Positions 9,613 through 49,740 are shown, numbered from the stretch's first letter. The stretch is 64,000 nucleotides of DNA from Candidatus Peregrinibacteria bacterium (GCA_018648865.1 JABGQH010000013.1:124001-188000); one strand, 5' to 3'. The notes: generated by a model from the letters alone, not told the origin. Numbers and translations are program-made.

Positions 9613-10977
9613 TTATCTATCTCTTCTAAAACGATTAACCCATTTACGAACAGGCGAAGAGGATTTTGCTTCTTCGGTAGTGTCAATTTCTTTAGCTTCT
9701 ACATCCGTTACAGCTTCTTGCTCTGCTTCTATACCAATCTGAGTATATCTAGGGCGTGCTTCGTAAGAAGAATAGTATGGTTCGATTACCTGATCCTCTG
9801 ATTGTTTTTTTATAATTCTAAACCAAGCTGCTTGTACGCCTGGAACACGCTCTCCTACTTTCCTAGTAGTACCAGCTGGGATATCTGTTGTGTATTCAAC
9901 TCTATCAGATGGAGCAGAGGTTTTACCCCAAAGAAACGGACCGAATATGTTTGTGTTTCTATCATCTTTTGTCCCATATAAAACAAAATATGCTCGTCCG
10001 TCTTCAGAGTACGTCTGTAAAAGAACTGCGCTGTCGCTATCATTTAAAAAACTAACATCTTTATATGGAGGGAAAACGGTTGCATCCGTTCCTTCTGGAG
10101 AATAATAACGAACACTATAACTATGATTTGTTCTACTTGTTATAGGAAACCCATACTCCCAAGCACCACGATATGCAGTAGTACTAACTTGGCAAAGCCC
10201 TCCGCCATAATCTGGAACAGTTTTATCTCCTTTTATTACTAATTCTTTTCTATATCCAGTTTGTGCATTTACAGGCCCAAGTACGTCGTTAAAAGAAAAC
10301 TCCTGCCCACTCGGAATCAAATAACCATTAAATCTATCAAGCCCAACACTAATATTGTGCTGCCTATTGTTTGGGGAACCTCTGTAGTCAGATTCTCCTA
10401 CGGCTAGTAAATCTGTAATACCCATTTCTATTAGATCTTTATCTAAAACTAATATGGTTGGAGCTGTCTCTTCTACTGGTAAAACGATATCTGTTATTCC
10501 TTCTCTTAATGCCTGAATAGTTAAATTAACGGCTTCATCTAGTAGCACAGTCCTACCGGGCAATCCCACTGAATCAAATTCAATTGAATCATCTATTGAT
10601 CGTTTGATTGATACTGTGCGCGGATCTCTATCTAAATATTGCGCTATTTCCTCTAAAATTGTTGCTCTAATTGCATTCGGAATTAATTTAATCTCTTCCT
10701 TTTTTATTAACCCAATTGGAATAGGAGGATCGCCATCACCATCTACTCGAACATATGCTGGGGGTAAAACTTTTTTGCCATTAAACATCCATACCTCTGC
10801 AGCGGATTTCCAAGAAGGAAACAGATCTGGATCAATGGTAAAAATATGATGCTTATACCTATATGTAATAGGTGCATAATTTGCTTTTACTAAAATTGGG
10901 CACAAGAATACAAAAAAGCTGAGTAAAAGAATTTGAATTCTTTTATTTAACATTTCTGCTTGGGGCAGCATGAGCAT
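9613..10977 (-). CDS. VanW-family protein
   Basis: GYLIPSGQEFSFNDVLGPVNAQTGYRKELVIKG...YGGGLCQVSTTAYRGAWEYGFPITSRTNHSYSVRYY. Confidence 0.9.
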   Translation of the reverse strand: MLMLPQAEMLNKRIQILLLSFFVFLCPILVKANYAPITYRYKHHIFTIDPDLFPSWKSAAEVWMFNGKKVLPPAYVRVDGDGDPPIPIGLIKKEEIKLIPNAIRATILEEIAQYLDRDPRTVSIKRSIDDSIEFDSVGLPGRTVLLDEAVNLTIQALREGITDIVLPVEETAPTILVLDKDLIEMGITDLLAVGESDYRGSPNNRQHNISVGLDRFNGYLIPSGQEFSFNDVLGPVNAQTGYRKELVIKGDKTVPDYGGGLCQVSTTAYRGAWEYGFPITSRTNHSYSVRYYSPEGTDATVFPPYKDVSFLNDSDSAVLLQTYSEDGRAYFVLYGTKDDRNTNIFGPFLWGKTSAPSDRVEYTTDIPAGTTRKVGERVPGVQAAWFRIIKKQSEDQVIEPYYSSYEARPRYTQIGIEAEQEAVTDVEAKEIDTTEEAKSSSPVRKWVNRFRRDR

Positions 10978-11512
10978 CTAATGCCTTGTTCACTAGTGCA
11001 TCGGCCTTAAAATTATCACCTCTTGGGATATGAATAAATTCAATCGAGGGAAAGCTAAGCCTTAATTCTTGTATCTCTTCAAAGTATTTTTTTAAAGCTG
11101 GCATTTTTACACGATATTGACCATTTAATTGCCTTTCAATTAATTGGCTATCCATATAACTAATAAGCCTATTTGGATGATACCTCTTGGCAATCTTGAG
11201 ACCCTCTATCACAGCTCTATATTCTGCAACATTGTTTGTTTCTTCCCCAATATATTCATAATGCTCACGAATGATCTCACCTTTTTGAGGATCCTCTAAT
11301 ACGCATCCTATGGCAGCATGACCAGGGTTTCCTCTAGAGCCTCCATCTGTAAAAAGATGAAGAGTACCACCAATTGATTCTGGCTGATCTACATCTATAG
11401 ATACATCAGATAATGCACTCTCTATCGCATCTATTATAAATTTATCTCTTTCCCTAACTCTTGGGAAAAGTTTTTGTAATTTACGCTCTAAGGATGCAGT
11501 GATACGAACCAT
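10943..11512 (-). CDS. RNase HI-like protein with short N-terminal RHH-like segment (start MVRITASLE preferred)
   Basis: LFTDGGSRGNPGHAAIG...NNVAEYRAVIEGL...ISYMDSQLI...GDNFKADALVNKALD. Confidence 0.85.
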   Translation of the reverse strand: MVRITASLERKLQKLFPRVRERDKFIIDAIESALSDVSIDVDQPESIGGTLHLFTDGGSRGNPGHAAIGCVLEDPQKGEIIREHYEYIGEETNNVAEYRAVIEGLKIAKRYHPNRLISYMDSQLIERQLNGQYRVKMPALKKYFEEIQELRLSFPSIEFIHIPRGDNFKADALVNKALDAHAAPSRNVK

Positions 11513-11534
11513 AATATGAATATTGTGATGCTGT

Positions 11535-12143
11535 TTATGTTTTCTTGCAAGAACCGTTAATATCTCCACTTGAACATCCACATGATTCATCTGTATTAGA
11601 ACAACATTCAATATCCTCTGATAAATCTAATTTGAATAGACCATCACGATAATCAATTACTGCTCCTCCAATACTTTTTAAAATAATAGAGGAAGCACAA
11701 ACAAAAGTATTCGGATGTTCTGCACAAGAAAAACATTCTTCACCAGTTGGTTTACTATCTCTAAATTCTAAACAAAAAGATCCAGCTTCATCTATCACAA
11801 CACTCAAGGCCGCCTGATTTATATCTTCTTTCTTCGCAATATCCTGTATTCCTTTTGCAGCACATGGCGTGAGCGAAAGTGTTTTTTCTCTTTTTGGCAT
11901 AGATTCAAATGCATTATTTAGATCATCTATTAATTCAAGTTGCATATCACCTGAAAATCCATGAACCATACATGCCTCTGATAATGTTTCTGTTGCTCCT
12001 ATAGAACAACCAACACAATTCATACCATACGCAAAAAGAATATGCTGCGCCTGCGGGCAGAGCGTAAGAATTTCTTGTATACGCATAGATGCATCTATTT
12101 TAGATCCTGTGCCTTTTTCTAGCTTGGAATCAGAAAGTGACAT
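11535..12143 (-). CDS. DUF1858 + HesB/IscA-like fusion
   Basis: N-term ILTLCPQAQHILFAYGMNCVGCSIGATETL (DUF1858); C-term IscA-like ending SCGCSSGD. Confidence 0.75.
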   Translation of the reverse strand: MSLSDSKLEKGTGSKIDASMRIQEILTLCPQAQHILFAYGMNCVGCSIGATETLSEACMVHGFSGDMQLELIDDLNNAFESMPKREKTLSLTPCAAKGIQDIAKKEDINQAALSVVIDEAGSFCLEFRDSKPTGEECFSCAEHPNTFVCASSIILKSIGGAVIDYRDGLFKLDLSEDIECCSNTDESCGCSSGDINGSCKKT

Positions 12144-12210
12144 ATTCTCATAGTACGTTGTTCTTTATTAAATTCCTAAAGAGACCAACAGTAATTATCC
12201 CTAAATCTCT

Positions 12211-25993: not shown

Positions 25994-26027
25994 GCTCAAA
26001 GCTTAAGTCTTAAAGCTCAAAGCTTTT
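25994..26027. repeat. Heptamer array containing the stop codon of the minus-strand ORF
   Basis: GCTCAAAGCTTAAGTCTTAAAGCTCAAAGCTTTTCA; 24 nt identical to the array at 20784. Confidence 0.75.
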
Positions 26028-27183
26028 CAAGTACTACAAATGGCTCTTCTATTAAAACAGAAAATCCTTCTATCTCTTCACATTCTTCTAAGCATACGAT
26101 TATAGATGCATCTTCTATAAGTTTTTCTTTATAAGATCGAACTGGCTGCCTTAATTCATACTGCCATTCATGACCATAACTTCCATTAATTAATACCGTT
26201 CCATCAATCCCATTTATATAAGACGAAACAACTCGAGCAGCAGACGGTTCCACACTTGGCCCATATTGCAAATACATTCCAAGTGCTACAAATGCAATTA
26301 AGAAAATCCTAGATTTACAGCTACAAAGCAGCCGAGGAGTAGACAACGCTCCTGCGATGAAAAGTGGAGTAAACAAAATCGCATAATACATTCGAAATGA
26401 CAGCAATACATAAATACAAACAAGGAGCATGCTGAAAAGCAAATCCCACCTCTTTTTTACTATCATCCCAACTGTGCCAAGTGCGCTTAAAACAACACTT
26501 CCCCCCACTGCCCAAAGTAAGAATAAATATTCAAGCTTTTGGCTAGCAGGCAAAGACGTATTCTGCGATCCAGCAGAAAACATGCTTACGACTACAAGCG
26601 GATTTGTAATTGTATAAACAGATAGGAGTAATAATGGAAGACCCACGCAAATATATTTTTTGCTTTTAGAAATATCCGATCTAAAAAATAGAATAAAAAC
26701 AATCGGCACATAAAGCGCTGCTTGATACGCAGTAAATAAACTAATTAACCAGAATAATGAAACAATTGCAGGAAAGCGATTAACAATATTTGGTCTGGTG
26801 AGCAACCAAAGGAATATTAGTCCTTGAATCGCGGTAATTGGAGCCATCATTATAGTTCCTGCTTGCAACAATACTGCTGCAGAAAGTAACCAATAGAGCA
26901 TTATAAATTTCCTTTGTCCACTTAATAAGCCTCTTGCCATGTCCCTCACAATCCAAACTGACTGTATTACGATTGTTGCGATTATAATTCTCCAAAATAC
27001 TTCTTGAAAAGATAAAAATTCAGTTTGGCTCATTATCCATCTTAATAATGGAGGATGAGGATACGGAATATTTAAAAGATACTTCGCTTCGTCTGTTCTA
27101 ACTCCATATGAAAGTTGAACTACAACAAGTAGCAATGCATACAATTGAAACATAAGGCCAGAAATTAAGTGCTTAGCTTTCAT
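26017..27183 (-). CDS. Multi-TM membrane protein, GT-C glycosyltransferase-like
   Basis: Polytopic; YPHPPLLRWIM near N-terminus. Confidence 0.65.
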   Translation of the reverse strand: MKAKHLISGLMFQLYALLLVVVQLSYGVRTDEAKYLLNIPYPHPPLLRWIMSQTEFLSFQEVFWRIIIATIVIQSVWIVRDMARGLLSGQRKFIMLYWLLSAAVLLQAGTIMMAPITAIQGLIFLWLLTRPNIVNRFPAIVSLFWLISLFTAYQAALYVPIVFILFFRSDISKSKKYICVGLPLLLLSVYTITNPLVVVSMFSAGSQNTSLPASQKLEYLFLLWAVGGSVVLSALGTVGMIVKKRWDLLFSMLLVCIYVLLSFRMYYAILFTPLFIAGALSTPRLLCSCKSRIFLIAFVALGMYLQYGPSVEPSAARVVSSYINGIDGTVLINGSYGHEWQYELRQPVRSYKEKLIEDASIIVCLEECEEIEGFSVLIEEPFVVLEKL

Positions 27184-31411: not shown

Positions 31412-31855
31412 TTAATGAAAAACAAAACGTTTGCGCATTCCAAAGTTCCAAACAAGAACAATCCACAATGTAATAAACATGGAAACAATATGATGCAAAT
31501 GGGCATACTCAACAAAAAGATAAAGCAATAGCTCAGTCCAAAGCAGACCACCTATTGTAATAATAATAACCATAACCACCTCTTTTGTACGACTGTGACG
31601 GCTTTTAAAAACCCACAAAATACTTATAAGATAATTCCAACAAAATCCAAGAGAATACCCAAAAAAAGCTGCAATCAAATAGTGGATACCTAATGCCTCG
31701 GTGAATAAACCATAAGACACCATGTTAACAACTGCTGAGGAACCCCCTACAAATACATAACGTAGGAACTGAATACGATCCGATGTAACAGGTCCGAAAA
31801 ACCAGTGTTTCATTAAATAATGAGGAAAAATAACTCTCAGTAATAGAGTTACCAA
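31412..31855 (-). CDS. GtrA-family protein
   Basis: FLRYVFVGGSSAVVNMVSYGLF...GYSLGFCWNYLISILWVF. Confidence 0.85.
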   Translation of the reverse strand: MVTLLLRVIFPHYLMKHWFFGPVTSDRIQFLRYVFVGGSSAVVNMVSYGLFTEALGIHYLIAAFFGYSLGFCWNYLISILWVFKSRHSRTKEVVMVIIITIGGLLWTELLLYLFVEYAHLHHIVSMFITLWIVLVWNFGMRKRFVFH

Positions 31856-33018
31856 ATTAAGCGCAGTGTATCATAAACAATCCTTCTATTCTTTATACAA
31901 ATAATCAAAAATAGGGAATCAACCAATAACGGAACCATAAAAAAACTTTGTTCTAATGAAAAGATATGACGAAACTCCAAATAAAAATAAAACCATTGAA
32001 AATGTAATGTAGCCAATACCAAAGGTATCCATATTTTCCTTCTCATAAGTTCAGGAATTGATGCAATCAATATGCATAAAATACCAGTAGCCATATAATA
32101 ATGATCCATATGATCAAGCAAGACATTCAATCCAAACCCAATAATCACTCCAAATATCAATGCCCGCTGTATATATCTCCACTCTGTTTTAGGTGTTGAA
32201 AATAGAGATAATAATCCCAAAAAAATAAGCAAAGGAGTTGTATGCATCAAATTACCCGCCCCTGTAAGAGAAGGATCTGGGAAATAGTAATTATGAATAG
32301 AAAAAATAATCTGTGGTATATGTGCAATGTTTAATAGAATCCTACTTGGCCCTTGCCAAACAGATCTATGATCTATATCTAGATGCGCTCCAACAAGAAT
32401 ATGACCAACTTGAAAATATTGAATTGCTACATAAGCAAAACAAATAACACCAATTAATAAAAAAGGGGCAATGCGTGAAGATATTTTTATTTTTTTTGAC
32501 TGAAGAACAAAAATAAGAGGAATTAGAGCTACTGCAAATGGCTTTGTAAGGATTGCGAAAGAAAGGAAGAAAGCAGAAATCCAAGGATATCTGCGAGAAG
32601 CTGCAATGCTTAACAACATCAAATTCCAGTATGCAGGACCAGTCCACCCACGAAGAGAGACAAAAAGAAGAAATGGCATCATGGAAAGAACAATTGTGAA
32701 TATCAGTGCAAGAGAGTCTTTCTTATACAAAGTGCGTCCTGCAAGAAATGCAAAAAATGGCAAAAGAATTGCAGAAAAGATCTGAAACTCAATCTGCGCA
32801 ATCGATGATTTATGTATAAGATACCAGATAGTTGCAAAAAAATCTGAGCCATGAAAACCATGAATACTTAAATCAAGACGACCACTTGCCAAAGTTTCTA
32901 CGAATCTTTGATACAAATAATGATCATCTAAAGGAAATGGTGACGTTTGAGTAAAAGTTAATAAAATAAACAACATTAAAAGAAATACAACCGTCCATGA
33001 TGATTTAAAAATATTCAT
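31849..33018 (-). CDS. Polytopic membrane protein, GT-C mannosyltransferase-like
   Basis: FPLDDHYLYQRFVETLASGRLDL; multiple TMs. Confidence 0.65.
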   Translation of the reverse strand: MNIFKSSWTVVFLLMLFILLTFTQTSPFPLDDHYLYQRFVETLASGRLDLSIHGFHGSDFFATIWYLIHKSSIAQIEFQIFSAILLPFFAFLAGRTLYKKDSLALIFTIVLSMMPFLLFVSLRGWTGPAYWNLMLLSIAASRRYPWISAFFLSFAILTKPFAVALIPLIFVLQSKKIKISSRIAPFLLIGVICFAYVAIQYFQVGHILVGAHLDIDHRSVWQGPSRILLNIAHIPQIIFSIHNYYFPDPSLTGAGNLMHTTPLLIFLGLLSLFSTPKTEWRYIQRALIFGVIIGFGLNVLLDHMDHYYMATGILCILIASIPELMRRKIWIPLVLATLHFQWFYFYLEFRHIFSLEQSFFMVPLLVDSLFLIICIKNRRIVYDTLRLIW

Positions 33019-33130: not shown

Positions 33131-34396
33131 ATGAAACAACATACTGTTTGTATTATTGGACTTGGATACGTTGGCTTGCCTCTTGCTCACGCGGCATCTG
33201 CCGCAGAGCACACTGTAATTGGATATGATATAAACAGTAAAAGAATTAATGAATTAAAAGATGGAAGTGACAAAACTGGAGAAATATCTAATGAGCAGCT
33301 AAAAGAAGTTAGTATTGATTTCACGCAAGACACAAACAAAATAAAAGAGGCGAATATTGTGATTCTTGCAATCCCTACCCCAGTAGACAGCAATCATAAG
33401 CCAGATCTATCTATGTTAAGGGAGGCTACAAAAACAGTTGGAAATAATCTAAAAGAAGGATCAATTGTTGTATATGAATCAACTGTATACCCTGGGGTTA
33501 CAGAAGATGTTTGTGGAAAAATATTAGAAGAAGAATCAGGACTAATTTGTGGTACAGATTTTTACTTAGGCTATTCCCCAGAAAGAGTTAATCCAGGGGA
33601 CAAAAAACATACTGTTAGTAATATTATAAAAGTTGTAGCTGGTCAGGATAAAAAAACTACAAATACACTTTGTGAATTTTATGAATCATTTGTGGAGGTA
33701 GGAATTCACAGAGCATCTAGTATTAAGGTAGCAGAGATGGCAAAAGCTATAGAAAATGCGCAAAGAGACCTAAATATAGCATTTGTTAACGAGATAGCTA
33801 TGCTATGCAGTGCGATTGGAATAGAAACGAAAGATGTACTTGAGGCTGCTAAAACTAAGTGGAATTTTTTGCCATTTACTCCTGGTCTAGTTGGTGGGCA
33901 TTGCATAGGAGTAGACCCATATTATTTAGTAGAAAAAGCCAATCAACTTGGCAAGGAAACAAAAGTAATAACAGCAGGCAGATCAACAAACGACGGCATG
34001 GGTGCGTTTGTTGCGAATCAAATTGAAGAAAGTTTGGTTAAATCACCTAAAAACATATTAGTTTTGGGAATAACTTTTAAAGAAAATGTTCCAGATACAC
34101 GTAATTCAAAATCTGGAGACGTAATTCGTGAACTAAAAAATATGGGACACACTGTTTCTGTTAATGACCCATATGTAAAAGAAGATGAAATTGAAAAAAT
34201 AGGATTCCATCCTGCAAAAAATATGGATGAAAAATACGATGTAGTAGCACTACTCGTTCCTCATAATGTTTATTTGGAAGACAATGCCAAAAAAATAATA
34301 GGTTATTGCAAAAAGGATGGACTAATTTACGATCTAAAATCTGTATTAGATAAAAAGGCAATCGAAGAAATAGGACTTAAGTACAAAGCCCTATAA
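33131..34396 (+). CDS. Nucleotide-sugar dehydrogenase (UDP-HexNAc type)
   Basis: [27 protein letters not shown]...[10 protein letters not shown]...[15 protein letters not shown]. Confidence 0.94.
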
Positions 34397-35434
34397 AGAA
34401 ACTCCCATTTCTGCAAAATCAGATTCAATCATAAGCTTAGCAAGGTCAGAAACCATGGTTTTAGGTTCCCATCCAAGCTCATTTTTTGCTTTAGAAGCGT
34501 CTCCAAGCAATATATCTACTTCTGCAGCTCTATAGTACCTCTCATCGATAGCAACGATTGTTTTGCCTGTTTTAGTATTAATATATTCTTCGTTTATTCC
34601 ATCCCCCCTTTTTTCAAATGAGATATTTGCATAATTAAGACAGAGCTCTAAAAATTCACGCACAGAGTGTGTTTCTCCTGTTGCTAATACATAATCATCA
34701 GGCTTTTCTTGCTGCAACATTCTCCACATCCCCTCTACGTATTCTTTTGCATATCCCCAGTCTCTTTTGGCATCTAGATTTCCTAGATACAACTTGTCCA
34801 TTTTCCCTGAAAGTATTTGAGCAAGAGACAATGTAATTTTTCTAGTAACAAAGTTTTCGCTCCTTCTAGGAGACTCATGATTAAATAAAATTCCATTTAC
34901 TGCATACATGTTATAGCTCTCTCTGTAATTACGAGTTAGATAAAAAGCATATGCCTTAGCGCATCCATATGGACTCCTAGGATAGAAAGGAGTTTGCTCG
35001 TTTTGAGGAGTTTCTAATATTTTTCCATATAATTCACTTGAACTTGCTTGGTAGAACTTGCTTTCTAGCCCACTTGTTCGCAATGCTTCCAGTAAACGCG
35101 TTGTACCGAGTCCTGTGCTGTCTCCTGTATATTCTGGAATATCAAAACTAACAGCAACATGGCTCTGTGCAGCTAAATTATAAACCTCATCTGGCTTAGA
35201 AAGTTTTAGGACCCTAAGCAAAGAATTGGAATCGCACAGATCACCATAATGCAAACGTATGGGTTTATTTGGTGCATATGGATCAGAAAATAAATGATCA
35301 ATCCTCCCTCTATTAAAAGTAGAAGCCCTTCTAACTAAACCATGAACTTCGTAACCCTTATCTAATAAAAGCTCAGCAAGATACGAACCATCTTGGCCTG
35401 TTATGCCTGTAATTAAAGCTCTCTTAGGGGACAC
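34391..35434 (-). CDS. gmd: GDP-mannose 4,6-dehydratase
   Basis: [33 protein letters not shown]...[16 protein letters not shown]. Confidence 0.96.
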
Positions 35435-35520: not shown

Positions 35521-36210
35521 TTAAAACTCCACCTGATGCTTTGCATCAAAAACCTCTGCGTTTTCTACCCCCCTCTCTTTTCTAAGAGTATTTATTAGAT
35601 CAGCTGGACCCTGTTTTCTCTTTGGCTGTACACCATAACTTAGCTCCATTCGATCACCACGAGCATGTGCACTCAACATTCTAAATCCATCGGATGATTT
35701 TTCTAGAACAGATTCAATATTAGAAACAATTTGGGTAGACCCATCTCCTTCTAACAAACACATAAGACGAACTATAGATTCATGCTTAGAAGTAATGCCA
35801 AAATCAAGCCATGTGAGCAAAAGAATTACAAAGCAAACAAAAACAGTAGTGATAACAGCAAGTATGAACATGCTTGCCCCCATAGCTAACCCAACAGAAA
35901 GAACTAATAATATATAAGCCATATCTTTTGGATCCTTTATTGCTGTCCTAAATCTAATCAATGAGAAAGCTCCTAACAGACCAATCGCAGCAAACAAGCT
36001 TTGGGTAGCAATCATCATAATTACTGAACCTAAAATTGTTAGTAGCACCAAAGCGAACTGAAATGATTGAGAATAACTAAGCCCTCTATGAGTAGCCTTG
36101 TATACCCATGCAATAATCATTCCTAGAACAAAACTTCCTCCCAAAGCAATAATTGCAACTATGGGGTCAAAACCAAGAGACAAACCAAGATCAGGAATTA
36201 CAGGCTGCAT
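35521..36210 (-). CDS. DUF4956 membrane protein
   Basis: Four TMs with GAFSLIRFRTAIKDPKDMAYILLVLSVGLAMG. Confidence 0.9.
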   Translation of the reverse strand: MQPVIPDLGLSLGFDPIVAIIALGGSFVLGMIIAWVYKATHRGLSYSQSFQFALVLLTILGSVIMMIATQSLFAAIGLLGAFSLIRFRTAIKDPKDMAYILLVLSVGLAMGASMFILAVITTVFVCFVILLLTWLDFGITSKHESIVRLMCLLEGDGSTQIVSNIESVLEKSSDGFRMLSAHARGDRMELSYGVQPKRKQGPADLINTLRKERGVENAEVFDAKHQVEF

Positions 36211-36265
36211 ACAAAACTTAGTGTAATGGAATAAAGATTTATAGAAAAGAAATCATTATATAATA

Positions 36266-37039
36266 TTAATTCTTCCATTCTAATCTCTCTCTTGAAGAGA
36301 GTGTACCAATAGAATATTTAGAATGGGAAGTGCGTGTAAGTTGAAAATCTTGAATTGTGTCATGAAACCATGAAGGTACAGCATGATTTGATTTAAGCTC
36401 TAATACACTCCACCCGGGATGGCATGAAGTGAGGAATGGTTTGCCATAAAGAGATTGTGGCTTCCAGGAGGATCCAATATTACTATCTATTGTTATTCTA
36501 AAACGGCGATCCTGCATACCAACAAATGGTATTCGATGATAAGAAATTAGTGTTGCTGGCTGCAAATTAAACCATTTATTAAGCATGTTTGCTTCGTGAG
36601 TTACGTCTTCGGATGCTTCTATATTTTTAAGTAAATGATCTAGCAATTCAGACATAGGCAAAGATTCATCTATTTTATCCATACTTAAGGAAAGGCGATC
36701 CTTGGATACTATAAAATCATGTCTACGTTTTATTTCTAGGAACGCAGAAGAGGTTTCAGAGAAACTCTCCTCGTACGTACGCAATCTTACCTTCCTTCTA
36801 GAAAGCAATCCCGACTCTTTCTCGTGTAAGGCATGCAGATCAATAGAATCAAAATAAAGCGATGAAACCGGATATTCTAACCTCCCTCTACCTTCTTCAA
36901 TTAAAAACGGATCAGGCTGTGTGTATGGCTTAATGCGATCAATAAACATTGGAATAATCCGATCAGGGATTAAATATTTAAGTTCAATCCTTCTAAAATG
37001 AAGTGGGGCACGACGGCGAGATGCAGTCTTTTGAAACAT
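36266..37039 (-). CDS. VTC-domain polyphosphate polymerase-like
   Basis: RIELKYLIP, VSSLYFDSID, RRKVRLRTYE, FLEIKRR, ISYHRIPFVGMQDRRFRITID, WSVLELKSN. Confidence 0.92.
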   Translation of the reverse strand: MFQKTASRRRAPLHFRRIELKYLIPDRIIPMFIDRIKPYTQPDPFLIEEGRGRLEYPVSSLYFDSIDLHALHEKESGLLSRRKVRLRTYEESFSETSSAFLEIKRRHDFIVSKDRLSLSMDKIDESLPMSELLDHLLKNIEASEDVTHEANMLNKWFNLQPATLISYHRIPFVGMQDRRFRITIDSNIGSSWKPQSLYGKPFLTSCHPGWSVLELKSNHAVPSWFHDTIQDFQLTRTSHSKYSIGTLSSRERLEWKN

Positions 37040-37094
37040 ATCGTTAAAAATTATAGCAGCACTATCTAAAGGTAATAGTTAATTTACCTATCAT

Positions 37095-39803
37095 TTATTT
37101 CACCGAATCCACTTCTATTATAGCCCCGCTTAAGGCGACAGTGTTTTCTTTATTACGACGGAAAGTACTATCTGTGACAGAAACAGACGGAGGCTTGAAG
37201 AATATCTTCTTAACATATGCGCTTATTGCAATGTCATTCTTTTCAAAAAGAACACGCTCAACCTTAGCGTGAGAATCATCCTTAACTGCTAATCCATACT
37301 TACAATTCTTTAAAGTAGCATCATGAATAAGCGGAGTGCTCTGTTCCCCAACACTTATGCATTTATCTGCGCTACCATCAACTTCTATATTTTTAATAAC
37401 AATTGGTGATCCAGAAATATCTAAACCATCGTTTCCGTTTCCTATAAACAAACTATTTTCCACTTTTCCAGAAAGCGCAAAATCAATATCTAAACCATCT
37501 GCAGAATTTTTTTCGAAACGAACACGATTTACATCAACATAAATATTCTTCAGGTTTAATCCGTCATCTCCGTGAGCATTACGAATAACGGAATCTACAA
37601 TTGTCACAGGACTACTTTGGAATGAAAGCATTCCTGTAACCAAAACACCATTTAGTCTTGCCTCACTACCATCAGAAATATCAACCCATTGTAAGGCACT
37701 TGGATCTTTTGCATTCACAACTACAAAAACTCCCCAAGGCTCAGATTCCCTCTCTGCACTAATTATAATTGGGGCTTCTTTGTATCCGATCATTGTTACA
37801 GGAGCATAAGAGAAAATTGAAACACCTGCCCCCATACGCAATGTGCTACCTGGACGAATAACTAGGTGAACCGTTGATGGAATAATTAGAGTTTCTGAAA
37901 TCTTATGGATGCCATTTAAAATTACTGTGTTTTGCTCGCCTGCCGTAAAGAATGGATATTTATTCAAAAAAGCTTCTTTAGAAATATATGATTCTTCAAG
38001 ACGCTCAAACTTTTGCTCGTCCACAATCATTTCACCAAGTAAGTCTGCCTTATTACCAGTTATAGCGTTTCTAATATCTACTTTTAGAGGATATCTTTCT
38101 TTAGGTACTTGAATATTCGTTGATGAAGTAAGGAAAAAAGTATGCTTAGCATGAGGAACACTAACTACCCGTTCATTTTCATTTAATTCTGGATCTCCTC
38201 TACCTAAAAGAGAGCTAAGTCCTTCTACCATCGCTACGCTTCCACTGCTGCTGTCTAAGTTCTCTCTTAGTCTTAAGAAGAGTGGAATATCTTCATCCCC
38301 CCAAACACCATTCCCTGTGTCTTTCCAAAGACGTAAATCTTCACTCTTTAGGAGAGGCACTAATTCGTCTGGTAAATGGATCTCTTTAAACTCTGCATCT
38401 GCTATCCCCCTTACAGTAAATATCATAGAGAGCAACAAACCGCGATTCTGCTCAGAGGTTTCAGGTATAGCCTCAGAGACCAATACTTCACATGTGTTTA
38501 ACTCCTCTTTTAGCCATTCAATATTGGATTTAACCTGTTTTTTTCGATCTTCTAACTGATGTTTAACCTGCCGGTTGCTATTGATTTTTAATGAATCCCT
38601 ATATGCAGCACGTTCAATCTGATTAAGTAACTCATCTACTTTATCTAGATCATCTGATACTTGGTAATCATCTTGTACATACTTCCAAACTCTTTTATGT
38701 GCCCTAGCTCTTAAAGATGGAACTCTAAAAATTTCATTCAACAATTTATTTCCAGGGGGAGCTAATACAGTTCGTGGGTTATACATATTTATATCCCAAG
38801 GTATCGGTTCAAATAAACCTCTACTGGTGTCATAAAATAATCTCACATTAAAATCTCTAACATGCCGTGATCCAGCAAGCATACTAAGTACATACCAATC
38901 AATTACTTTATCTATATCCATTATTGCCCCTAATCGATTTACATATTCTGGATCCAAATGCGATCCTTCTTCCGAAAGAGACAATAGTTCCATTACCTCC
39001 TCATAGTTTTCTACTCCAGATGGATCCTCTATATATTTATCCCAATACTCAAGATGATCGAATGCAGGATCCCATTGCTGAAAAGCAGAATTACCACCAC
39101 CTGTATTATAAATATTTACATCCCCTGGCCTGTTTTGCTTTTCTAGCATCTCCTTTGTCCAATGCTCAATTTCTGTATAAAGCAATGGTCCACTCCCATT
39201 TACAGAAACTCTTACAAATCTGATTGGTGGATGCAATAGGTTAAACTTTCCAGCTCGGTAAACATTTAAAGGCTCTATGAACCAGCCCCTGTCTTCTGGA
39301 AGAATAAAATTAATTTCTCTCATCCCATTAAATAATTTTTCTTTAGAGAATTTAACTCTCCATGATTTCTTGTTATATGCCCAATGATTAAATATATCTC
39401 CTCTTACACGAACCTTCACTTCATATTCCTCTCCATCTGAATCTGAGAAAATGGCCTTTGCCCAATACTTATCTTCATCCTGTAAGAAAAGGTTCCCGTA
39501 CCATTTAGATGGCAACTCTGTAGGCAAAGCCTGTTTTAACTCCTTCAAATCATCTTTATCTATCTTTAGTGAATACTTTGGAAGGGGGGTTTCAGGCTTT
39601 TCTCCTCTATAAAAAATATTCAACGCACGATCTGCAGCCCTAACCATAACAAGAGCTCCAGGTATACGACCAATAAATGTTTCACGCGCAAGTACACTAT
39701 TTGGAGTTGATTGATAAATAAGCAACCCAAGCCCAGCTATCGCAGAAGCTTGTACAGTAATAATGATTGCAATTATGGCAAGTACTAGGTGAAGGCGTCG
39801 CAT
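37095..39803 (-). CDS. CotH-family kinase with C-terminal right-handed beta-helix
   Basis: VKVRVRGDIFNHWAYNKKSWRVKF...DFNVRLFYDTSRGLFEPIPWDINMYNP; C-terminal parallel beta-helix repeats. Confidence 0.88.
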   Translation of the reverse strand: MRRLHLVLAIIAIIITVQASAIAGLGLLIYQSTPNSVLARETFIGRIPGALVMVRAADRALNIFYRGEKPETPLPKYSLKIDKDDLKELKQALPTELPSKWYGNLFLQDEDKYWAKAIFSDSDGEEYEVKVRVRGDIFNHWAYNKKSWRVKFSKEKLFNGMREINFILPEDRGWFIEPLNVYRAGKFNLLHPPIRFVRVSVNGSGPLLYTEIEHWTKEMLEKQNRPGDVNIYNTGGGNSAFQQWDPAFDHLEYWDKYIEDPSGVENYEEVMELLSLSEEGSHLDPEYVNRLGAIMDIDKVIDWYVLSMLAGSRHVRDFNVRLFYDTSRGLFEPIPWDINMYNPRTVLAPPGNKLLNEIFRVPSLRARAHKRVWKYVQDDYQVSDDLDKVDELLNQIERAAYRDSLKINSNRQVKHQLEDRKKQVKSNIEWLKEELNTCEVLVSEAIPETSEQNRGLLLSMIFTVRGIADAEFKEIHLPDELVPLLKSEDLRLWKDTGNGVWGDEDIPLFLRLRENLDSSSGSVAMVEGLSSLLGRGDPELNENERVVSVPHAKHTFFLTSSTNIQVPKERYPLKVDIRNAITGNKADLLGEMIVDEQKFERLEESYISKEAFLNKYPFFTAGEQNTVILNGIHKISETLIIPSTVHLVIRPGSTLRMGAGVSIFSYAPVTMIGYKEAPIIISAERESEPWGVFVVVNAKDPSALQWVDISDGSEARLNGVLVTGMLSFQSSPVTIVDSVIRNAHGDDGLNLKNIYVDVNRVRFEKNSADGLDIDFALSGKVENSLFIGNGNDGLDISGSPIVIKNIEVDGSADKCISVGEQSTPLIHDATLKNCKYGLAVKDDSHAKVERVLFEKNDIAISAYVKKIFFKPPSVSVTDSTFRRNKENTVALSGAIIEVDSVK

Positions 39804-39873
39804 GTAAAGAAGTGTACTGATATAAGATCATTGGGACAATACAGAGACCATTATCGTGCTATTCTCTAATTAC

Positions 39874-41007
39874 ATGAAAGTTCTACTAATTTGTGAAGAC
39901 ATAGAAGGCAAATCTGGATGGAGTACATATAGCCGCGATTTATACGATGAGCTATCTAATAAAAACAAAGTGATTCTAGTAACAAGTAAGAATGGGAAGT
40001 CCAATCATTCAATATTACCAAGTCCGATCAGTGCAGCAGTATTTCCACCAAGGCTGTTTGTATTAAAAAGAAAACTACGAAAAATAATACGAGAGGAAAA
40101 CCCAGACATTATTCACTGCACAGTAGAGCCTTACGCGCCTCTTTTATTATTACTTCCTAAAAAATATAAAGCTAAGTGCCTAATCACTGCTCATGGAAGC
40201 TATGGGGTTAGACCACTTGAAAAAAACATATCTAGGTTCTTTGCAAAAAAATATTACAAAAGATGCACAAGAATTATTTGTGTTAGTAATTACACAAAAA
40301 ACGCAGTATCAAAAGCAATAGAAAAATATGAAAATAAGTCTGTGGCTAAGGCTTTTTTAAATAAGGCTGTTGTGATACACAATGGTATTTCAATAAATAA
40401 TATTGATTCCTTAATAGGAGAAAACCTAAAGCTTAAAGCTAATAGCTTAAAGCTTATTTTGTTGGTTGGAGGTATGAAACCACGTAAAGGTATTCTAGAA
40501 GCCATTAATGCTTGCTCCAGATATAAAGCAAAATATAATAATAACTTCATATTTCATATAGTTGGAACACCATACGAAGACTCTAAATTTACAAAAAATA
40601 TTAAAGATAAAGTGTCCGAATTAGGGCTAGAAAATAATATTAAAATACGAGGGCAGATATCTGGTACTGAGCTTTCTGATCTATACAAAAATGCAGACCT
40701 ATATTTAATGCCTGCCAAAACTACACCAAATACATTTGAAGGATTTGGACTAGTTTATCTAGAAGCAAATTCATATGGAGTTCCATGCATAGGACCAAAT
40801 GACAGTGGAGCTACAGAGGCGATATTAGAAGGCAAAACCGGATACAGCGTTGACCCAAGTAATGCGGAACTTATTTCTGAGCGAATGAATTGGATTCTAA
40901 ACGAGAATAAAATTAATCCAAATGAGTGCAAACAGTGGGCAAAAAGCCACAGCAAAGAAAAGATGGCAAATGATGTTTTAGATGTTTACTTAGAAATTTC
41001 TAAGTAA
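39874..41007 (+). CDS. GT4-family glycosyltransferase (ORF open from 39856)
   Basis: HGSYGVRP...VVIHNGISINN...LVGGMKPRKGI...EGFGLVYLEANSYGVPCIGPNDSGATEAI. Confidence 0.92.
   Translation: MKVLLICEDIEGKSGWSTYSRDLYDELSNKNKVILVTSKNGKSNHSILPSPISAAVFPPRLFVLKRKLRKIIREENPDIIHCTVEPYAPLLLLLPKKYKAKCLITAHGSYGVRPLEKNISRFFAKKYYKRCTRIICVSNYTKNAVSKAIEKYENKSVAKAFLNKAVVIHNGISINNIDSLIGENLKLKANSLKLILLVGGMKPRKGILEAINACSRYKAKYNNNFIFHIVGTPYEDSKFTKNIKDKVSELGLENNIKIRGQISGTELSDLYKNADLYLMPAKTTPNTFEGFGLVYLEANSYGVPCIGPNDSGATEAILEGKTGYSVDPSNAELISERMNWILNENKINPNECKQWAKSHSKEKMANDVLDVYLEISK
40426..40459. repeat. Heptamer array inside the GT4 coding sequence
   Basis: CTAAAG-CTTAAAG-CTAATAG-CTTAAAG-CTTATTT; encodes NLKLKANSLKLI. 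Confidence 0.75.
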
Positions 41008-42486: not shown

Positions 42487-44109
42487 CTATCTAAACCAGT
42501 GAAGAATCAAGGAAACAAAAGAAGATGCGGCAGGAGCAGAAACTTCTGGCATTGGAATAATATCTACATGCTGATTTATAAGTTTAGACAGTAATTCTTC
42601 GTATCCAATTGCATGAGTTACTGCGTAATTATTTAGAGCAAAAATTAAACTATCTTTGTTATGTAGACTGTATAAAGTTGTAGGAGCAAAAATAATTGAT
42701 CTTGTATCAGTTAAATAGAAATATTCTTTGATAGAAGATGGATACGCAACAATTGAATCCGCTGGAAGTGAATCAATTGCTTTTGTTGCAGCATATATAT
42801 TTAAAGTATTTGATTTGTTATAAAAACGAGCAATCTGTGAACGATTGGCCTGCATGCACTGGATAGAAACCATAAAAGTTATCAAAGCAATTATAAGAAT
42901 TGAATTCTTTTTATTAGAAGTTAGCCTCTGTGTGATTGATACAATCCCGACGCCAGCAAAGATAACAAGCACCCAAGCATAATCCATTAGATGAGATCTT
43001 TGAGCCAAAAATAAATATCTAATTACAACTTCTAAAGAAATAGGAAGCCAAACAAGAAGTAAAAATATGCGTCTCCTTTTTTTAAAAAATAAAAACATCC
43101 CGGGCAATATAAATAGCCACAAGAAAACTCCTCCTATGTAATCTTGCAAAAAGAGTGATGGAATCGAGCCGATTATTAACCATGAGCCAATCAATATCCT
43201 AGGTATCAAAGTGGAACTAGTAGCACCAAATATTTGCATATAGTTTTGTGCTCCTAACTGGTCCAATTTTGACCAAGTACTAACCTCTGCAACAAAATCT
43301 TTTATATATTCATCTTTCTCAAACTCATAGGTATATAAATCTGGATAAAAATGCCCAATGCTAGGAGTGCTACGCTCTGCACCTATTAATAGAAGTCCTT
43401 TTTCTATAATTGAAACATCCTGAGACGCAACATGAGAAGCAATAGGAAGTGAATATACAAAAAGAGAAACCCCTAGAAATATAACAAGCCCCGAAACCAA
43501 ATGCCTCCAGTACCTGTATCCAAAGAATATCGCTGCTATAACTATCCCCGGTAAAAACAATATAAACGCGTCTCTAAATGCCAATGCTAATCCAAATGAC
43601 AATCCAGAAAGCAAGATAAGGATTGCAAATCGTTTACTAGATACGCTCTTGTTCTTTACAAAAGTATTTGTCTCTAAGAAAAACGCAATTGAAAAGAAAA
43701 GAAACACATAAGCAAAAACATATCCATCTACTCTAAGTGCTTGGATAAAGTGCAATGGGAGCAGAGGGAATAGCACAGCAGAGATCCAAGCGACTCTGTT
43801 CCCTGCTAATTTATTAACACACCACCACAAAGGGAATAATGAAATACACAAAGCAACAATATTAATACTTATCCAAGGCAAAGGATCGCCCCAAGAAAAG
43901 AATGACGAGAAGAGTAATAAAAACCATGGAAGCATACGACTCCCCAAGAAAAAATTAGGATCCCCATCTGTTATAACTCTATGCATACCAGCCAAATTAG
44001 GAAGTTCATATGGATATCCCATAACCCAAATTGGGAGCATGAGAATACAAAAAACAACCAACGAAAATATTCCTAATAAAATTAAATGATGCTGTAGGCG
44101 AAATTTCAC
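42487..44109 (-). CDS. GT-C/PMT-like membrane glycosyltransferase
   Basis: Polytopic; GMHRVITDGDPNFFLGSRMLPW, ALAFRDAFILFLPG. Confidence 0.6.
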   Translation of the reverse strand: MKFRLQHHLILLGIFSLVVFCILMLPIWVMGYPYELPNLAGMHRVITDGDPNFFLGSRMLPWFLLLFSSFFSWGDPLPWISINIVALCISLFPLWWCVNKLAGNRVAWISAVLFPLLPLHFIQALRVDGYVFAYVFLFFSIAFFLETNTFVKNKSVSSKRFAILILLSGLSFGLALAFRDAFILFLPGIVIAAIFFGYRYWRHLVSGLVIFLGVSLFVYSLPIASHVASQDVSIIEKGLLLIGAERSTPSIGHFYPDLYTYEFEKDEYIKDFVAEVSTWSKLDQLGAQNYMQIFGATSSTLIPRILIGSWLIIGSIPSLFLQDYIGGVFLWLFILPGMFLFFKKRRRIFLLLVWLPISLEVVIRYLFLAQRSHLMDYAWVLVIFAGVGIVSITQRLTSNKKNSILIIALITFMVSIQCMQANRSQIARFYNKSNTLNIYAATKAIDSLPADSIVAYPSSIKEYFYLTDTRSIIFAPTTLYSLHNKDSLIFALNNYAVTHAIGYEELLSKLINQHVDIIPMPEVSAPAASSFVSLILHWFR

Positions 44110-45074: not shown

Positions 45075-45790
45075 AAAAAGCATGGACACTAAAAGATGTG
45101 GCAGCTCACTGGGATAGCGTCCCTGATTATGATGGCGCAAATGGAAAACTTGACTCATATATGCGTAGATTCACAGACAGCGCACCTCTTTTTTCTATAC
45201 CAGATAATGCTCTTGTTTTAGATATGGATTGCAGAACAGGGAATGGGACATCTTTTCATGCAAAGACTTATCCTTCTGCAAAATGGCACTGCGTTGCCAG
45301 TGCATCATCTTTTGAAAAAATAACCAGAAAGCACCTAGCGGAAGAAGGAATTAGTGCAGATATTCAACAACTAACTGAGTTCCCACTACCTTTTGAAGAT
45401 GAGTATTTTGACGTAGTGCTCTGCTACGAAACACTAGAGCATATGCCAGACCCTGAATTATTAATTATAGAACTTTCTAGAGTCCTTAAACCAGGAGGAA
45501 CATTCGTATTAACAACACCAAATGTTCTATGGGAACCAGTTCATTTGGCTTCTGCTGCTCTTCATTTTGAACATGGCGAGGGGCCACATCGCATGATCCC
45601 TAGAAAAGAAATATTCGCAGGCTACAAAAAAGCAAATCTGAATGTGATTACAGAAATAACTACAGTACTAATCCCCGCTGGTCCTAAGTGGCTACTCAAA
45701 TTTGGAAGATGGTGCGAAAAAGTTCTAACAGAAAGAGGAATGAGACTATTGGGGTTAAGAAGAATTTTTATCTGCCAAAAATATGAATGA
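45071..45790 (+). CDS. SAM-dependent methyltransferase
   Basis: LVLDMDCRTGNGT...FDVVLCYETLEHMPDPELLIIELSRVLKPGGTFVLTTPN. Confidence 0.9.
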   Translation: MKKAWTLKDVAAHWDSVPDYDGANGKLDSYMRRFTDSAPLFSIPDNALVLDMDCRTGNGTSFHAKTYPSAKWHCVASASSFEKITRKHLAEEGISADIQQLTEFPLPFEDEYFDVVLCYETLEHMPDPELLIIELSRVLKPGGTFVLTTPNVLWEPVHLASAALHFEHGEGPHRMIPRKEIFAGYKKANLNVITEITTVLIPAGPKWLLKFGRWCEKVLTERGMRLLGLRRIFICQKYE

Positions 45791-47126
45791 GACTAAAGAT
45801 ATTGATTGGTGGCAAAAATATAAAAAAGACATTTTAGATGTTGGACTAGATACCGAATGCGGAACAGTTGTAGGGCTATCTGAAGGGCTTTTGGAATATA
45901 AAAATATAAAAGGAAAACATATCCCAGTTCGTACAAAAAAAGATGGAGCCTTGCCACAGGCTGCCTATGATGGATGTGCCGCAAGATTATGTAATTATCC
46001 TGAGTTAAATGAATATGTTTTCAAAAAACAACCAAAGAGCTGGCTATGCGGAGTTGTAGAAGAAGCTTTTATTGGGCACGCAGCAAATGAAAATATACGA
46101 CGCACAGGAGCTTCTGGAGGAATCCTATCTGCAATCTTAATTCACCTTTTAGAATCAAAAGAAATAACGGGGGCAGTATGTATGAAAACTGGGAATCAGA
46201 ATCCATGGGAATCAGAACCATTTATAGCTCACTCAAAAGAAGAAATACTCGAATGTGCAGGCAGTGTTTACAGCGCCACACCAATGAATACTATTTTGTC
46301 TGAATTAGAGAATGAGGATGGGCCATTGGCATACATTGGGCTACCAGATCAAATTGCCGCCATTAGAAAATTGCAAAGAATGGATCACCCATCTGTGCGA
46401 AATATTAAATATGTATTTGGTCCATATACAGGTACACAAATGTCTTTTGAGGCGATCAAAAGCTTTCTGCGATCCAATGGAGTTAGGTCTGAAGATAAAA
46501 TAAAAACTTTAAAATATAGGGCTGGGGAATGGCCAGGACATTTACAGATTGAATTAAAGGATGGCAGGATCTTGCAAGCAGAAAAATTCCATTACAATTA
46601 CCTAATACCCTTCTTTATTACTTCATCTAGTTTGCAAATACCAGATTTTACAAATGAACTAACCGATATTTCTGTAGGTGATGCATGGTCACCAAAATAC
46701 GAAGAAAAGAGAGGCGGATATAGTGTAGTTTTAGCACGAAGTGAAAAAGGAGTTAAAATATTAAAAGATATGCAACTTGATAAAGCTATAACGATTGAAA
46801 ATATTCCAATTTCTGAAGCACTAGATATGCACGGGCATATGCTAGATTTTAAAAAAAGAGGAAGCTTTATCCGAAATAATTGGAAAAAAGTTAAGCCAGA
46901 ATATGGATACAAACCAGCTAAAATAACAGATGGAAGAAAGTTTGTAGAATGGTGTATGCGAATCTTTTTTGGAATAGGGAAACTGGCTGTATCTAGATGG
47001 ATAGTAGAACATATACCACTCAAGATTGTTGGACCATGTTTTAATGTTTTAAGAAAATCTTGGAAATCAGTTTCCAGACCAACTAAACGAAAAAATCTAC
47101 GAACTATGGAATTTATTGTTTCATAG
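45783..47126 (+). CDS. FrhB/FdhB-like protein with Fe-S cysteines replaced
   Basis: RRTGASGGILSAILIHLLE...YIGLPDQIAAIRKLQ...ELTDISVGDAW. Confidence 0.85.
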   Translation: MNETKDIDWWQKYKKDILDVGLDTECGTVVGLSEGLLEYKNIKGKHIPVRTKKDGALPQAAYDGCAARLCNYPELNEYVFKKQPKSWLCGVVEEAFIGHAANENIRRTGASGGILSAILIHLLESKEITGAVCMKTGNQNPWESEPFIAHSKEEILECAGSVYSATPMNTILSELENEDGPLAYIGLPDQIAAIRKLQRMDHPSVRNIKYVFGPYTGTQMSFEAIKSFLRSNGVRSEDKIKTLKYRAGEWPGHLQIELKDGRILQAEKFHYNYLIPFFITSSSLQIPDFTNELTDISVGDAWSPKYEEKRGGYSVVLARSEKGVKILKDMQLDKAITIENIPISEALDMHGHMLDFKKRGSFIRNNWKKVKPEYGYKPAKITDGRKFVEWCMRIFFGIGKLAVSRWIVEHIPLKIVGPCFNVLRKSWKSVSRPTKRKNLRTMEFIVS

Positions 47127-47152: not shown

Positions 47153-48070
47153 ATGATCTCTCTTGTTATCCCTGTTTACAACGAAGCAAACCAAGTTGAA
47201 GAAACTATCAACCTAGCTACCAAAACTCTTAATAATATAGGAGAAGACTTTGAAATTATTGCAGTAAATGATGGCAGCTCAGATACTTCTGCAGCCATTT
47301 TGGCTGGAATCAACAATCCTAAACTTACTGTGTTGCATCATAAAATCAATACTGGATACAGTAGTTCATTAAAAACAGGGATTAGACATTCAAAAGGAGA
47401 AATAATTGCAATAACTGATGCCGATGGAACATATCCTGTTAATGAATTAGCAGGACTATTTGAACATATGAAAAAAACTGATGCCGATATGGTTATAGGA
47501 GCTAGAACAAAACAAGGAGCCAAAATTCCTCTGGTTAGGAAGCCAGCAAAAGCAATAATCGCACTGCTTGCAAACAGCTTAACAGGTGTAAAGATTCCAG
47601 ATAATAATTCTGGACTACGAATATTTAGAAAAGATCTTTGCGAACAATTCTGGCATCTATATCCAGAGAGATTCTCTTTTACAATAACGATTACATTAGC
47701 AGCGCTAACCAATGGATATCTAGTTGAGTTTGTACCAATAGATTATTACAAACGCTCTGGTAAAAGCTCTATGTCATCTGGCTTTAATGGAATAAAGAAC
47801 TTTATGAATTTTATAGGTTTAATAATTAGAATCGTAACTTATTTTAGACCCCTTCGTTTCTTTATTTGGCCAAGTCTACTCTTGTTAATTGGAGGTATTG
47901 CAATTGCAATAAGCACTATAGTAACCGATAGGAATATTTCTGATGCAGGACTTCTGCTTATCGTAACAGGAGTACAGGTTGGACTATTCGGGTTGCTAGC
48001 AGATGTAATTGTTCGCCAGTCTAAGGTACATATACCTCATACAAAATCCACTCATCAGAACGATCAATAA
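47153..48070 (+). CDS. GT2 family glycosyltransferase, DPM-like
   Basis: ISLVIPVYNEANQVEETI...VNDGSSDTSAAIL...TDADGTYPV; C-terminal TMs. Confidence 0.92.
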   Translation: MISLVIPVYNEANQVEETINLATKTLNNIGEDFEIIAVNDGSSDTSAAILAGINNPKLTVLHHKINTGYSSSLKTGIRHSKGEIIAITDADGTYPVNELAGLFEHMKKTDADMVIGARTKQGAKIPLVRKPAKAIIALLANSLTGVKIPDNNSGLRIFRKDLCEQFWHLYPERFSFTITITLAALTNGYLVEFVPIDYYKRSGKSSMSSGFNGIKNFMNFIGLIIRIVTYFRPLRFFIWPSLLLLIGGIAIAISTIVTDRNISDAGLLLIVTGVQVGLFGLLADVIVRQSKVHIPHTKSTHQNDQ

Positions 48071-49640
48071 TATTTAGATTTAGATCTGTTGAGAGAATAT
48101 CCCACTCTGGATACCTTTTTTTATCATGCAAAACATATTGAACATCATAAGAATCAATAAATTCAAAAAGGCTTTCATCCATTTCTTCACATACAGAATC
48201 AACGAGTGCAATCTCTTGTGCTCTCACTCTTTCCTCTTCAGAAGAAGAGGAGATTCCATCATAAGCAGCACCATAAACTAATGGCTTTCTATCTTTGTAT
48301 GTTCTGTTCTCAATAGGTATTGCAAATTGAGTCATACAAAATCGTTCAGCAATTTCTATATGAGATCTAAGTTCATGCTGAAGGTATGGCGTATATAAAA
48401 CATCGTGCTTTGTATTAGATGCTAAAAATGCAGAGGTAGATGGATCAGAAAGAATAACTGATTGATCTATCTGGTCTAAAATTTTTAACACTCCAGAAAG
48501 ATGCTGTTGTGAGAAATCCTCTTCATCTAATCTCCACTGTGAAATTATTGATCGACCATCTATCGCAATGCCACACAAAAAAACTAAAGAAGATAGGAAT
48601 GCAATTCGATTAAATATGCCCTTCTCTTTCCAGAAAAGGACAAGAGCTAAGACTGCAGAAAACACCAAGGTAAATAGATAATGTGATGCAAACAAAAAGC
48701 GAGTTCCATGTATTAAATGCTGATTCAAAAGTACAAACGAACAGATAATTGTAAGATTTATAAATATATATTTTTTATATGTTCCAAAAAGATTAGCGAG
48801 TGCACCCATAGACATACCTAAAAATAAGATGCTCCATGCCCAAGATTCTGGAGTTCTGCTTTTACCAATCCCACTACGAAAATAGGCTTCTGGATATAAT
48901 GAGTTTTGTGAAAGAGTATAAATATCCCACAAGTGTGGAGCTGCAAAAACAAGACCAACGCCAGCAGCTATAGATAGTGAAAATAATTTCCTCCAGTCTT
49001 TTTTATAAAGGAACCAAGCAGTAGCTATAGCGAGAAAGCACCACGCCGCAGTGAAACTCCAAAAATAGACTCCTATTAATGTTCCTAAAATAATACCTGC
49101 AACAATGGACCAAGCTACAGATTTGTTTAGGCTAACTACAATGCTTATCATTGAAAGTATTACGAGCAAGAAACTAACTCGTTGATGTATTGGTCTACCT
49201 AAATTATATAGTTCCAAAAAAGAAAAAAGAGCCGCAGCAATAAATGATTGCTTGCGAGAAAAGCCACTTGCGCGGCAAAACCAAACAATAGAAAGAAATA
49301 AGAGCATTGGGATAACAAAATCCATCAATGTAAAAATAGAAGATGCCCTATAAAAGAATGGCCGAAAGAATGTTCCATATGCTTTTTCTATTATCCCAGC
49401 CTGAAGAGGTTGGATTGTATTTCCTCCAGCTATTGCATTCCCAACTTGATCAGATCCGCAACAAAGCACTGCTTGAACACGAGCAAGATATAAATCTTCA
49501 TCTGAATTCAGATGAACTGGAATACCTTGATATCTATCATCAACAATATGTAATAAATGTGGAACACTCACAAGAAATCCGAGTGATATAGAAAATATCA
49601 CCACAGAAAGCACCCATTTGTTTATCTTTAGATAATTCAT
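48021..49640 (-). CDS. Polytopic membrane protein, oligosaccharyltransferase/GT-C-like (ORF open to 49691; MNYLKINKW start preferred)
   Basis: N-terminal DDRYQGIPVHLNSDEDLYLARVQ; multiple TMs. Confidence 0.6.
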   Translation of the reverse strand: MNYLKINKWVLSVVIFSISLGFLVSVPHLLHIVDDRYQGIPVHLNSDEDLYLARVQAVLCCGSDQVGNAIAGGNTIQPLQAGIIEKAYGTFFRPFFYRASSIFTLMDFVIPMLLFLSIVWFCRASGFSRKQSFIAAALFSFLELYNLGRPIHQRVSFLLVILSMISIVVSLNKSVAWSIVAGIILGTLIGVYFWSFTAAWCFLAIATAWFLYKKDWRKLFSLSIAAGVGLVFAAPHLWDIYTLSQNSLYPEAYFRSGIGKSRTPESWAWSILFLGMSMGALANLFGTYKKYIFINLTIICSFVLLNQHLIHGTRFLFASHYLFTLVFSAVLALVLFWKEKGIFNRIAFLSSLVFLCGIAIDGRSIISQWRLDEEDFSQQHLSGVLKILDQIDQSVILSDPSTSAFLASNTKHDVLYTPYLQHELRSHIEIAERFCMTQFAIPIENRTYKDRKPLVYGAAYDGISSSSEEERVRAQEIALVDSVCEEMDESLFEFIDSYDVQYVLHDKKRYPEWDILSTDLNLNIIDRSDEWILYEVYVP

Positions 49641-49740
49641 AATCCTATATTGAATGATATAGAAACATTGAAAAATAAGAAAATTGACCACACAAAAAAA
49701 GGTAAAAACAGTTTTTTATGAGAAAATGCACCCAAACTCC

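Follow-up and report, generated by a model that had tools for sequence, protein, structure and literature searches.

A VTC–DUF4956–CotH gene module outside Pel loci: a candidate route for polyphosphate export and surface modification in Peribacteria and beyond

An accessory set of genes encoding a CotH protein, a polyphosphate polymerase of the VTC type and a DUF4956 membrane protein lies beside the Pel polysaccharide genes of Gram-positive bacteria (Whitfield et al., PMC7112168), and the co-occurrence of this trio at Pel loci is thus already published. In S. intermedius the set comprises SIR_1594/1593/1592, and the 2025 study of that locus did not find the synteny of the trio outside Pel (PMC12345266). 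Here we describe a trio of the same families in a 64,000-nucleotide stretch of DNA (hereafter the window; JABGQH010000013.1:124001-188000, assembly GCA_018648865.1) from a Candidatus Peregrinibacteria bacterium. An original prediction, made from the sequence alone, had placed three consecutive minus-strand genes at positions 35521-39803; these coordinates correspond exactly to three complete open reading frames in the order CotH, VTC, DUF4956, with two intergenic gaps of 55 bp each and Pfam assignments that all exceed the curated cut-offs. Like the Gram-positive Pel set, the locus has three contiguous families, a secreted CotH, a DUF4956 protein with four transmembrane segments and an ACT domain, and a linkage to surface polysaccharide. 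It differs in that CotH comes first in the operon and carries a beta-helix tail and a shortened catalytic loop, whereas the CotH of the Pel set is FN3-tailed. A Pel locus (pelDEADAFG) was considered for the source genome and rejected, since PelG was not found there and the neighbouring family 4 glycosyltransferase scores 33.6 against a PelF cut-off of 100; DUF4832 had no match among the scanned neighbours of the trio.

Other described systems share parts of this arrangement. The NELoc-2 locus of C. perfringens (PMC2879425) and a Planococcus plasmid also hold a VTC-DUF4956-CotH core beside a glycosyltransferase, but there CotH lies downstream, no beta-helix is noted, and the accessory genes are different and include a HEAT-repeat gene; we identify as DUF4956 the NELoc-2 gene that was labelled tubulin/FtsZ in that 2010 paper. 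The spore-coat kinase CotH of B. subtilis and B. cereus (5jd9/5jda) has the same fold, beta3 lysine and PWD metal-binding aspartate; in the present locus, however, the protein is membrane-anchored and predicted to be extracytoplasmic, ends in a beta-helix, and has an HVRDFN loop in place of D-x4-N. With the yeast VTC complex (Vtc1/3/4) our locus shares a tunnel domain with aligned catalytic residues and a proposed coupling of synthesis to a membrane partner. That partner is DUF202 in yeast and apparently DUF4956 here, where, unlike in yeast, the SPX domain is absent and a kinase is present. In the literature searched, outside which most subscription journals and preprints lay, we found no earlier report of the spread of the trio beyond Pel, of the remodelled CotH loop, or of the sister operons with HlyD- and TolC-type genes described below.

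The source genome (1.13 Mb, 23 contigs, 99.97% complete) is of Peribacteria type, its closest named relatives being Candidatus Peribacteria/Peregrinibacteria. We compared 57 genomes from the family to which this bacterium belongs: the 13 that have VTC are precisely the 13 that have DUF4956, a co-occurrence far above chance, and CotH adjoins the pair in 12 of these, the contig of the thirteenth (G043) stopping within CotH. Many of these relatives have a tandem CotH pair, one short and one long with the beta-helix, while the source genome has the long form only. Two genomes of one genus (G032 and G051) have CotH without the VTC-DUF4956 pair. The orphan CotH of G051 (locus L048, 3064-5691) has lost its PWD metal-binding aspartate to N, its loop histidine to V and its loop asparagine to E, and this degenerate active site is consistent with a dependence of CotH on the pair. 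Of 80 VTC loci from named genomes, 76 have DUF4956 next to VTC and 62 have CotH there; the trio extends over Patescibacteria, Bacillota, Actinomycetota, Gammaproteobacteria, Lokiarchaeota and others. In the combined set all 115 neighbouring VTC-DUF4956 pairs are co-directional, with a median gap of 15 bp. Conserved co-occurrence in relatives, set beforehand as a test, was thus found at both scales. This confirms the VTC-DUF4956-CotH association as a common one that reaches beyond Pel loci (the Pel test itself covering the source genome), which contradicts the 2025 statement on Pel-only synteny. The original prediction that these families co-occur elsewhere holds; that they do so without an assigned function holds only in part, as the trio is described near Pel (PMC7112168) and its genes have been deleted in S. 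intermedius (PMC12345266).

A different arrangement occurs in Verrucomicrobiota, Acidobacteriota and some Proteobacteria: CotH is missing, and an HlyD-type periplasmic adaptor follows VTC and DUF4956. Three such operons (L107, L119 and L126) have the gene order DUF4956, HlyD, a 400-residue protein, VTC; a fourth, L136, has a homologue of the 400-residue protein that scores above the cut-off of PF02321 (OEP, outer-membrane efflux) and is TolC-like. The L107 protein was tied to the other copies by a custom hidden Markov model seeded with L107's own copy. No ABC, RND or MFS pump was recognised among the scanned neighbours of these four operons, and the diderm VTC-DUF4956-HlyD(-TolC-like) set thus consists of exporter parts minus the inner-membrane pump. 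We regard the four proteobacterial operons as putative envelope-spanning polyphosphate exporters. In samples drawn evenly from a gammaproteobacterial class and from Verrucomicrobiota, CotH-type against HlyD-type loci number 4 against 3 and 8 against 13, respectively, one locus having both. In a FastTree phylogeny of VTC a single branch (support 97) separates the two types. Since this requires a single change, the split appears to be one ancient divergence rather than the outcome of repeated exchanges of CotH and HlyD, which we had also considered. The VTC-DUF4956 core, judged from gene content, appears to work with either the outer parts of an exporter or an external kinase. The HlyD/TolC-type operons point above all to export of the VTC product, on which CotH would act outside.

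Several loci of the survey have features of their own. The gammaproteobacterial trio of L072 and L073 is nearest to the Patescibacteria type, its VTC being 35% identical and its CotH being of the His type with a beta-helix, and this resemblance suggests transfer of the entire module between phyla. The small genome G088 has two separate VTC-DUF4956 pairs (L027 and L043) of different subtypes. Beside a VTC-DUF4956 pair without CotH, locus L076 encodes (10503-12179) an APH phosphotransferase fused to a CDP-alcohol phosphatidyltransferase.

The VTC protein of the window (36266..37039, minus strand; 257 aa, no transmembrane segment) is a triphosphate tunnel enzyme of the VTC polyphosphate polymerase type that matches PF09359 over its full length (E 2e-35; 123 bits against a cut-off of 23). 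The single sequence gave no phmmer matches in the PDB; the family profile was needed, and it retrieved Vtc4 structures (E 4e-12), Vtc2 and Vtc3 more weakly, and no CYTH-type hydrolase structure. Its residues R17, K21, R85, R87, K104, K113, R169, E214, K216 and K241 align with R196, K200, R264, R266, K281, K294, R361, E426, K428 and K458 of Vtc4 (Vtc4 numbers by our own counting from the printed profile alignment). The basic and acidic tunnel motifs that had been noted in the sequence are indeed kept: K21, R85, R87, E102, K104, K113, R169, D185, E214, K216 and K241 vary little or not at all among 136 homologues. The triple change R264A/R266A/E426N yields an inactive Vtc4 (PMC9911596). The glutamate E19 of the R-x-E-x-K motif is present in 127 of the 136 homologues where Vtc4 has Thr, and for this reason the same chemistry as in Vtc4 is likely, not certain; the product is presumably polyphosphate. 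A family-by-family search of the source genome found no PPK1, PPK2, Ppx-GppA or DUF202, leaving VTC as the sole polyphosphate enzyme found and DUF4956 as its sole linked membrane partner.

The DUF4956 protein (35521..36210, minus strand; 229 aa) was correctly recognised as such in the original prediction: it matches PF16316 (E 1e-12; 48.5 bits against a cut-off of 30.6), and its AlphaFold (AF2) model has about four membrane helices. In this model (mean predicted local distance difference test, pLDDT, 74) helices at residues 16-40, 46-67, 72-84, 94-111 and 115-134 precede a cytosolic ferredoxin/ACT-like domain, for which Foldseek returned the C-terminal domains of MgtC (2lqj, 7qa5; E about 4e-3) and also ACT domains. 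The relationship with MgtC is distant only, as the sequence scores 21.4 bits against the MgtC cut-off of 31.4 in Pfam, and a search of the PDB with the DUF4956 profile gave nothing useful. All 127 homologues have both arginines of the motif R86-F-R88 (35947..35955, minus strand); in the model these arginines lie in the loop joining the short third helix to the next.

The CotH protein (37095..39803, minus strand; 902 aa) is, as expected, a kinase-fold protein with a C-terminal parallel beta-helix, supported by Pfam, AF2 and Foldseek. Its kinase domain (residues 131-435, 38499..39413) matches PF08757 (E 6e-21), and the model (pLDDT 84.5) matches the B. cereus CotH structure with Mg and AMP (5jda; E 4.5e-14, target-normalised TM-score 0.76). 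The right-handed beta-helix is recognised by Pfam at residues 749-893 (37125..37559; Beta_helix, E 4e-11), begins near residue 620 in the AF2 model, and has Foldseek matches with AlgG, NosD, PL6 and pectate lyases. The fusion is not peculiar to the source genome, being common to a CotH subfamily in Peribacteria, Parcubacteria and some Gammaproteobacteria. The original prediction called the beta-helix secretable; the helix stands, but the N-terminus looks like an uncleaved hydrophobic anchor (residues 2-32, 39708..39800; a single helix in AF2, with R2 and R3 ahead of the hydrophobic stretch). The protein, with about 870 residues beyond this anchor, is therefore better described as membrane-anchored and facing outside, its extracytoplasmic orientation being predicted from the model.

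Loss of active-site residues had been named as a point that would tell against the original prediction. VTC shows no such loss at the tunnel residues examined; in CotH the beta3 lysine pair (Lys145/146) and the metal-binding aspartate of the PWD motif (D337, 38793..38795; D251 of B. subtilis; Asp in 95 of 96 aligned CotH) are retained, but the catalytic loop is not canonical. In B. subtilis both D228Q and D251A are inactive (PMC7821199). The position of D228, mostly Asp in the CotH of Firmicutes, Actinobacteria and Lokiarchaeota, is here His314, in the shortened loop H314-V-R-D317-F-N319 (38847..38864; loop pLDDT about 68), and there is no Asp at the canonical D-x4-N spacing, Asp317 standing two residues before Asn319. 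A His at this position occurs in 46 aligned sequences, all of them of the beta-helix CotH clade or short paralogues of Peribacteria. Because every long Peribacteria CotH aligned keeps both His314 and Asp317, the loop looks remodelled rather than decayed, and we dropped the idea that at His314 the catalytic Asp has simply been lost, Asp317 being invariant in these long proteins.

These findings suggest a model in which VTC makes polyphosphate in the cytosol, DUF4956 passes it through the membrane, and CotH uses it outside for surface modification; we consider this reading about evenly balanced between right and wrong. Soluble VTC would build the chain from ATP at the cytosolic face, and DUF4956 would dock VTC and conduct the chain across the membrane as a counterpart of the Vtc1/3/4 transmembrane domains, its invariant R-x-R being a likely phosphate contact. 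Outside, the membrane-anchored CotH-beta-helix protein would take up the polyphosphate and most likely use it as phosphoryl donor, or attach it, the target being a surface glycan or protein made by the surrounding gene island and the beta-helix serving to grip the glycan. The CotH step taken alone is a tentative proposal that we rather doubt, both the donor and the substrate being inferred. The view of VTC-DUF4956 as a polyphosphate synthase-exporter, with CotH as its outside partner, follows from the presence of the same core beside HlyD/TolC-like genes instead of CotH. The role of DUF4956 as a polyphosphate conduit is suggested by this operon position. The surface phosphorylation or polyphosphorylation first proposed for the locus would fit this model. 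A broader version, somewhat unlikely in our estimate, would make DUF4956 a general bacterial and archaeal polyphosphate translocase with two outlets: in some diderms a conduit of the HlyD/TolC type, or else an extracytoplasmic CotH that would modify the cell surface with one or many phosphates, drawing on exported polyphosphate in place of ATP. If true, the model would explain how a surface kinase can work where ATP is absent, provide a VTC-type pathway for polyphosphate secretion in bacteria, and assign a function to DUF4956, a family scarcely mentioned in the literature searched; the module thought to be tied to Pel would be much more general.

A number of facts weigh against this model. The strongest comes from S. 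intermedius, where cells deleted for the VTC gene were unchanged in aggregation and Pel level, whereas loss of DUF4956 or of CotH altered both (PMC12345266); this can mean redundancy, other conditions, or an action of CotH and DUF4956 in Pel without polyphosphate. Polyphosphate synthesis by a bacterial VTC of this family is nowhere demonstrated in the literature found. With the non-canonical loop, kinase activity of CotH cannot be assumed. Neither profile search nor Foldseek matched DUF4956 with a channel in sequence or fold, and its likeness is to MgtC, a regulator. The alternation of CotH and HlyD has a Fisher's exact P of 3e-14 in the combined set, a value that overstates independence given the one event, and the VTC tree is a quick one with long branches. 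The orphan CotH with a degenerate active site is a single case, which limits the weight of that support. Finally, loci L044-L047 have VTC without DUF4956 and without CotH. The VTC genes of these four loci contain in-frame TGA codons and belong to a recoded lineage of the same class; L045-L047 share a common, different conserved neighbourhood.

The likeness to MgtC and ACT domains would fit a regulatory module, in which CotH would phosphorylate proteins of the glycan machinery, DUF4956 with its ligand-sensing ACT domain would control VTC, and polyphosphate would stay inside as store or signal. Whitfield et al. proposed that CotH regulates Pel through phosphorylation (PMC7112168), and in S. intermedius Pel is raised by deletion of DUF4956 and lowered by deletion of CotH (PMC12345266). 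The HlyD/TolC-type operons, however, imply traffic across the envelope, no Ppx-GppA that could draw on stored polyphosphate was found in the source genome, and CotH is predicted to lie outside, away from cytosolic ATP; we hold this explanation to be unlikely, if worth keeping in mind. The loop of CotH bears on another alternative, which we consider comparably unlikely and which is compatible with a VTC-DUF4956 exporter: a pseudokinase scaffold whose beta-helix and kinase fold bind glycan and polyphosphate structurally, with no phosphotransfer. The missing Asp at the D228 position and the shortened loop would agree with it, as would the short tandem paralogue of relatives, which in some genomes lacks the loop Asp; but the invariance of His314 and Asp317 in the long Peribacteria proteins and the near-universal PWD Asp speak for selection on an active site, with chemistry possibly altered.

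It is also conceivable, though quite improbable, that the VTC product is different, phosphate being transferred from nucleotide triphosphates onto a lipid or sugar primer to give a phosphate-rich polymer or head group for DUF4956 to flip and CotH to modify. The prevalence of E19 in place of the Thr of Vtc4 indicates that the active sites are not identical, and genes for nucleotide sugars and glycosyltransferases surround the module. Against this, the other tunnel residues agree with Vtc4, and the E-x-K pair E214/K216 is that of Vtc4, unlike the Glu-rich patch of the hydrolases (PMC4641920).

The trio lies between gmd and glycosyltransferase genes, as had been seen from the sequence. On one side is gmd itself (GDP-mannose 4,6-dehydratase; 34391..35434, minus strand; TIGR01472 equivalog, 543.8 against a cut-off of 415 bits), followed by a TviB-like nucleotide-sugar dehydrogenase (33131..34396, plus strand; TIGR03026 above cut-off) whose family recurs near the trios of relatives, in 11 of the loci compared; on the other is the family 4 glycosyltransferase (39856..41007, plus strand; Pfam match). 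The surrounding island comprises genes for nucleotide-sugar dehydrogenases, epimerases, GtrA and glycosyltransferases. It also encodes an FrhB/FdhB-type (coenzyme F420 hydrogenase beta) protein at 45783-47126 of the window and four proteins without a Pfam match at E 1e-4 (48021-49691, 42487-44109, 31849-33018 and 26017-27183). Elsewhere in the window, positions 3080-6256 encode a penicillin-binding protein (transglycosylase-transpeptidase) with a C-terminal bacterial Ig domain (Big_7).

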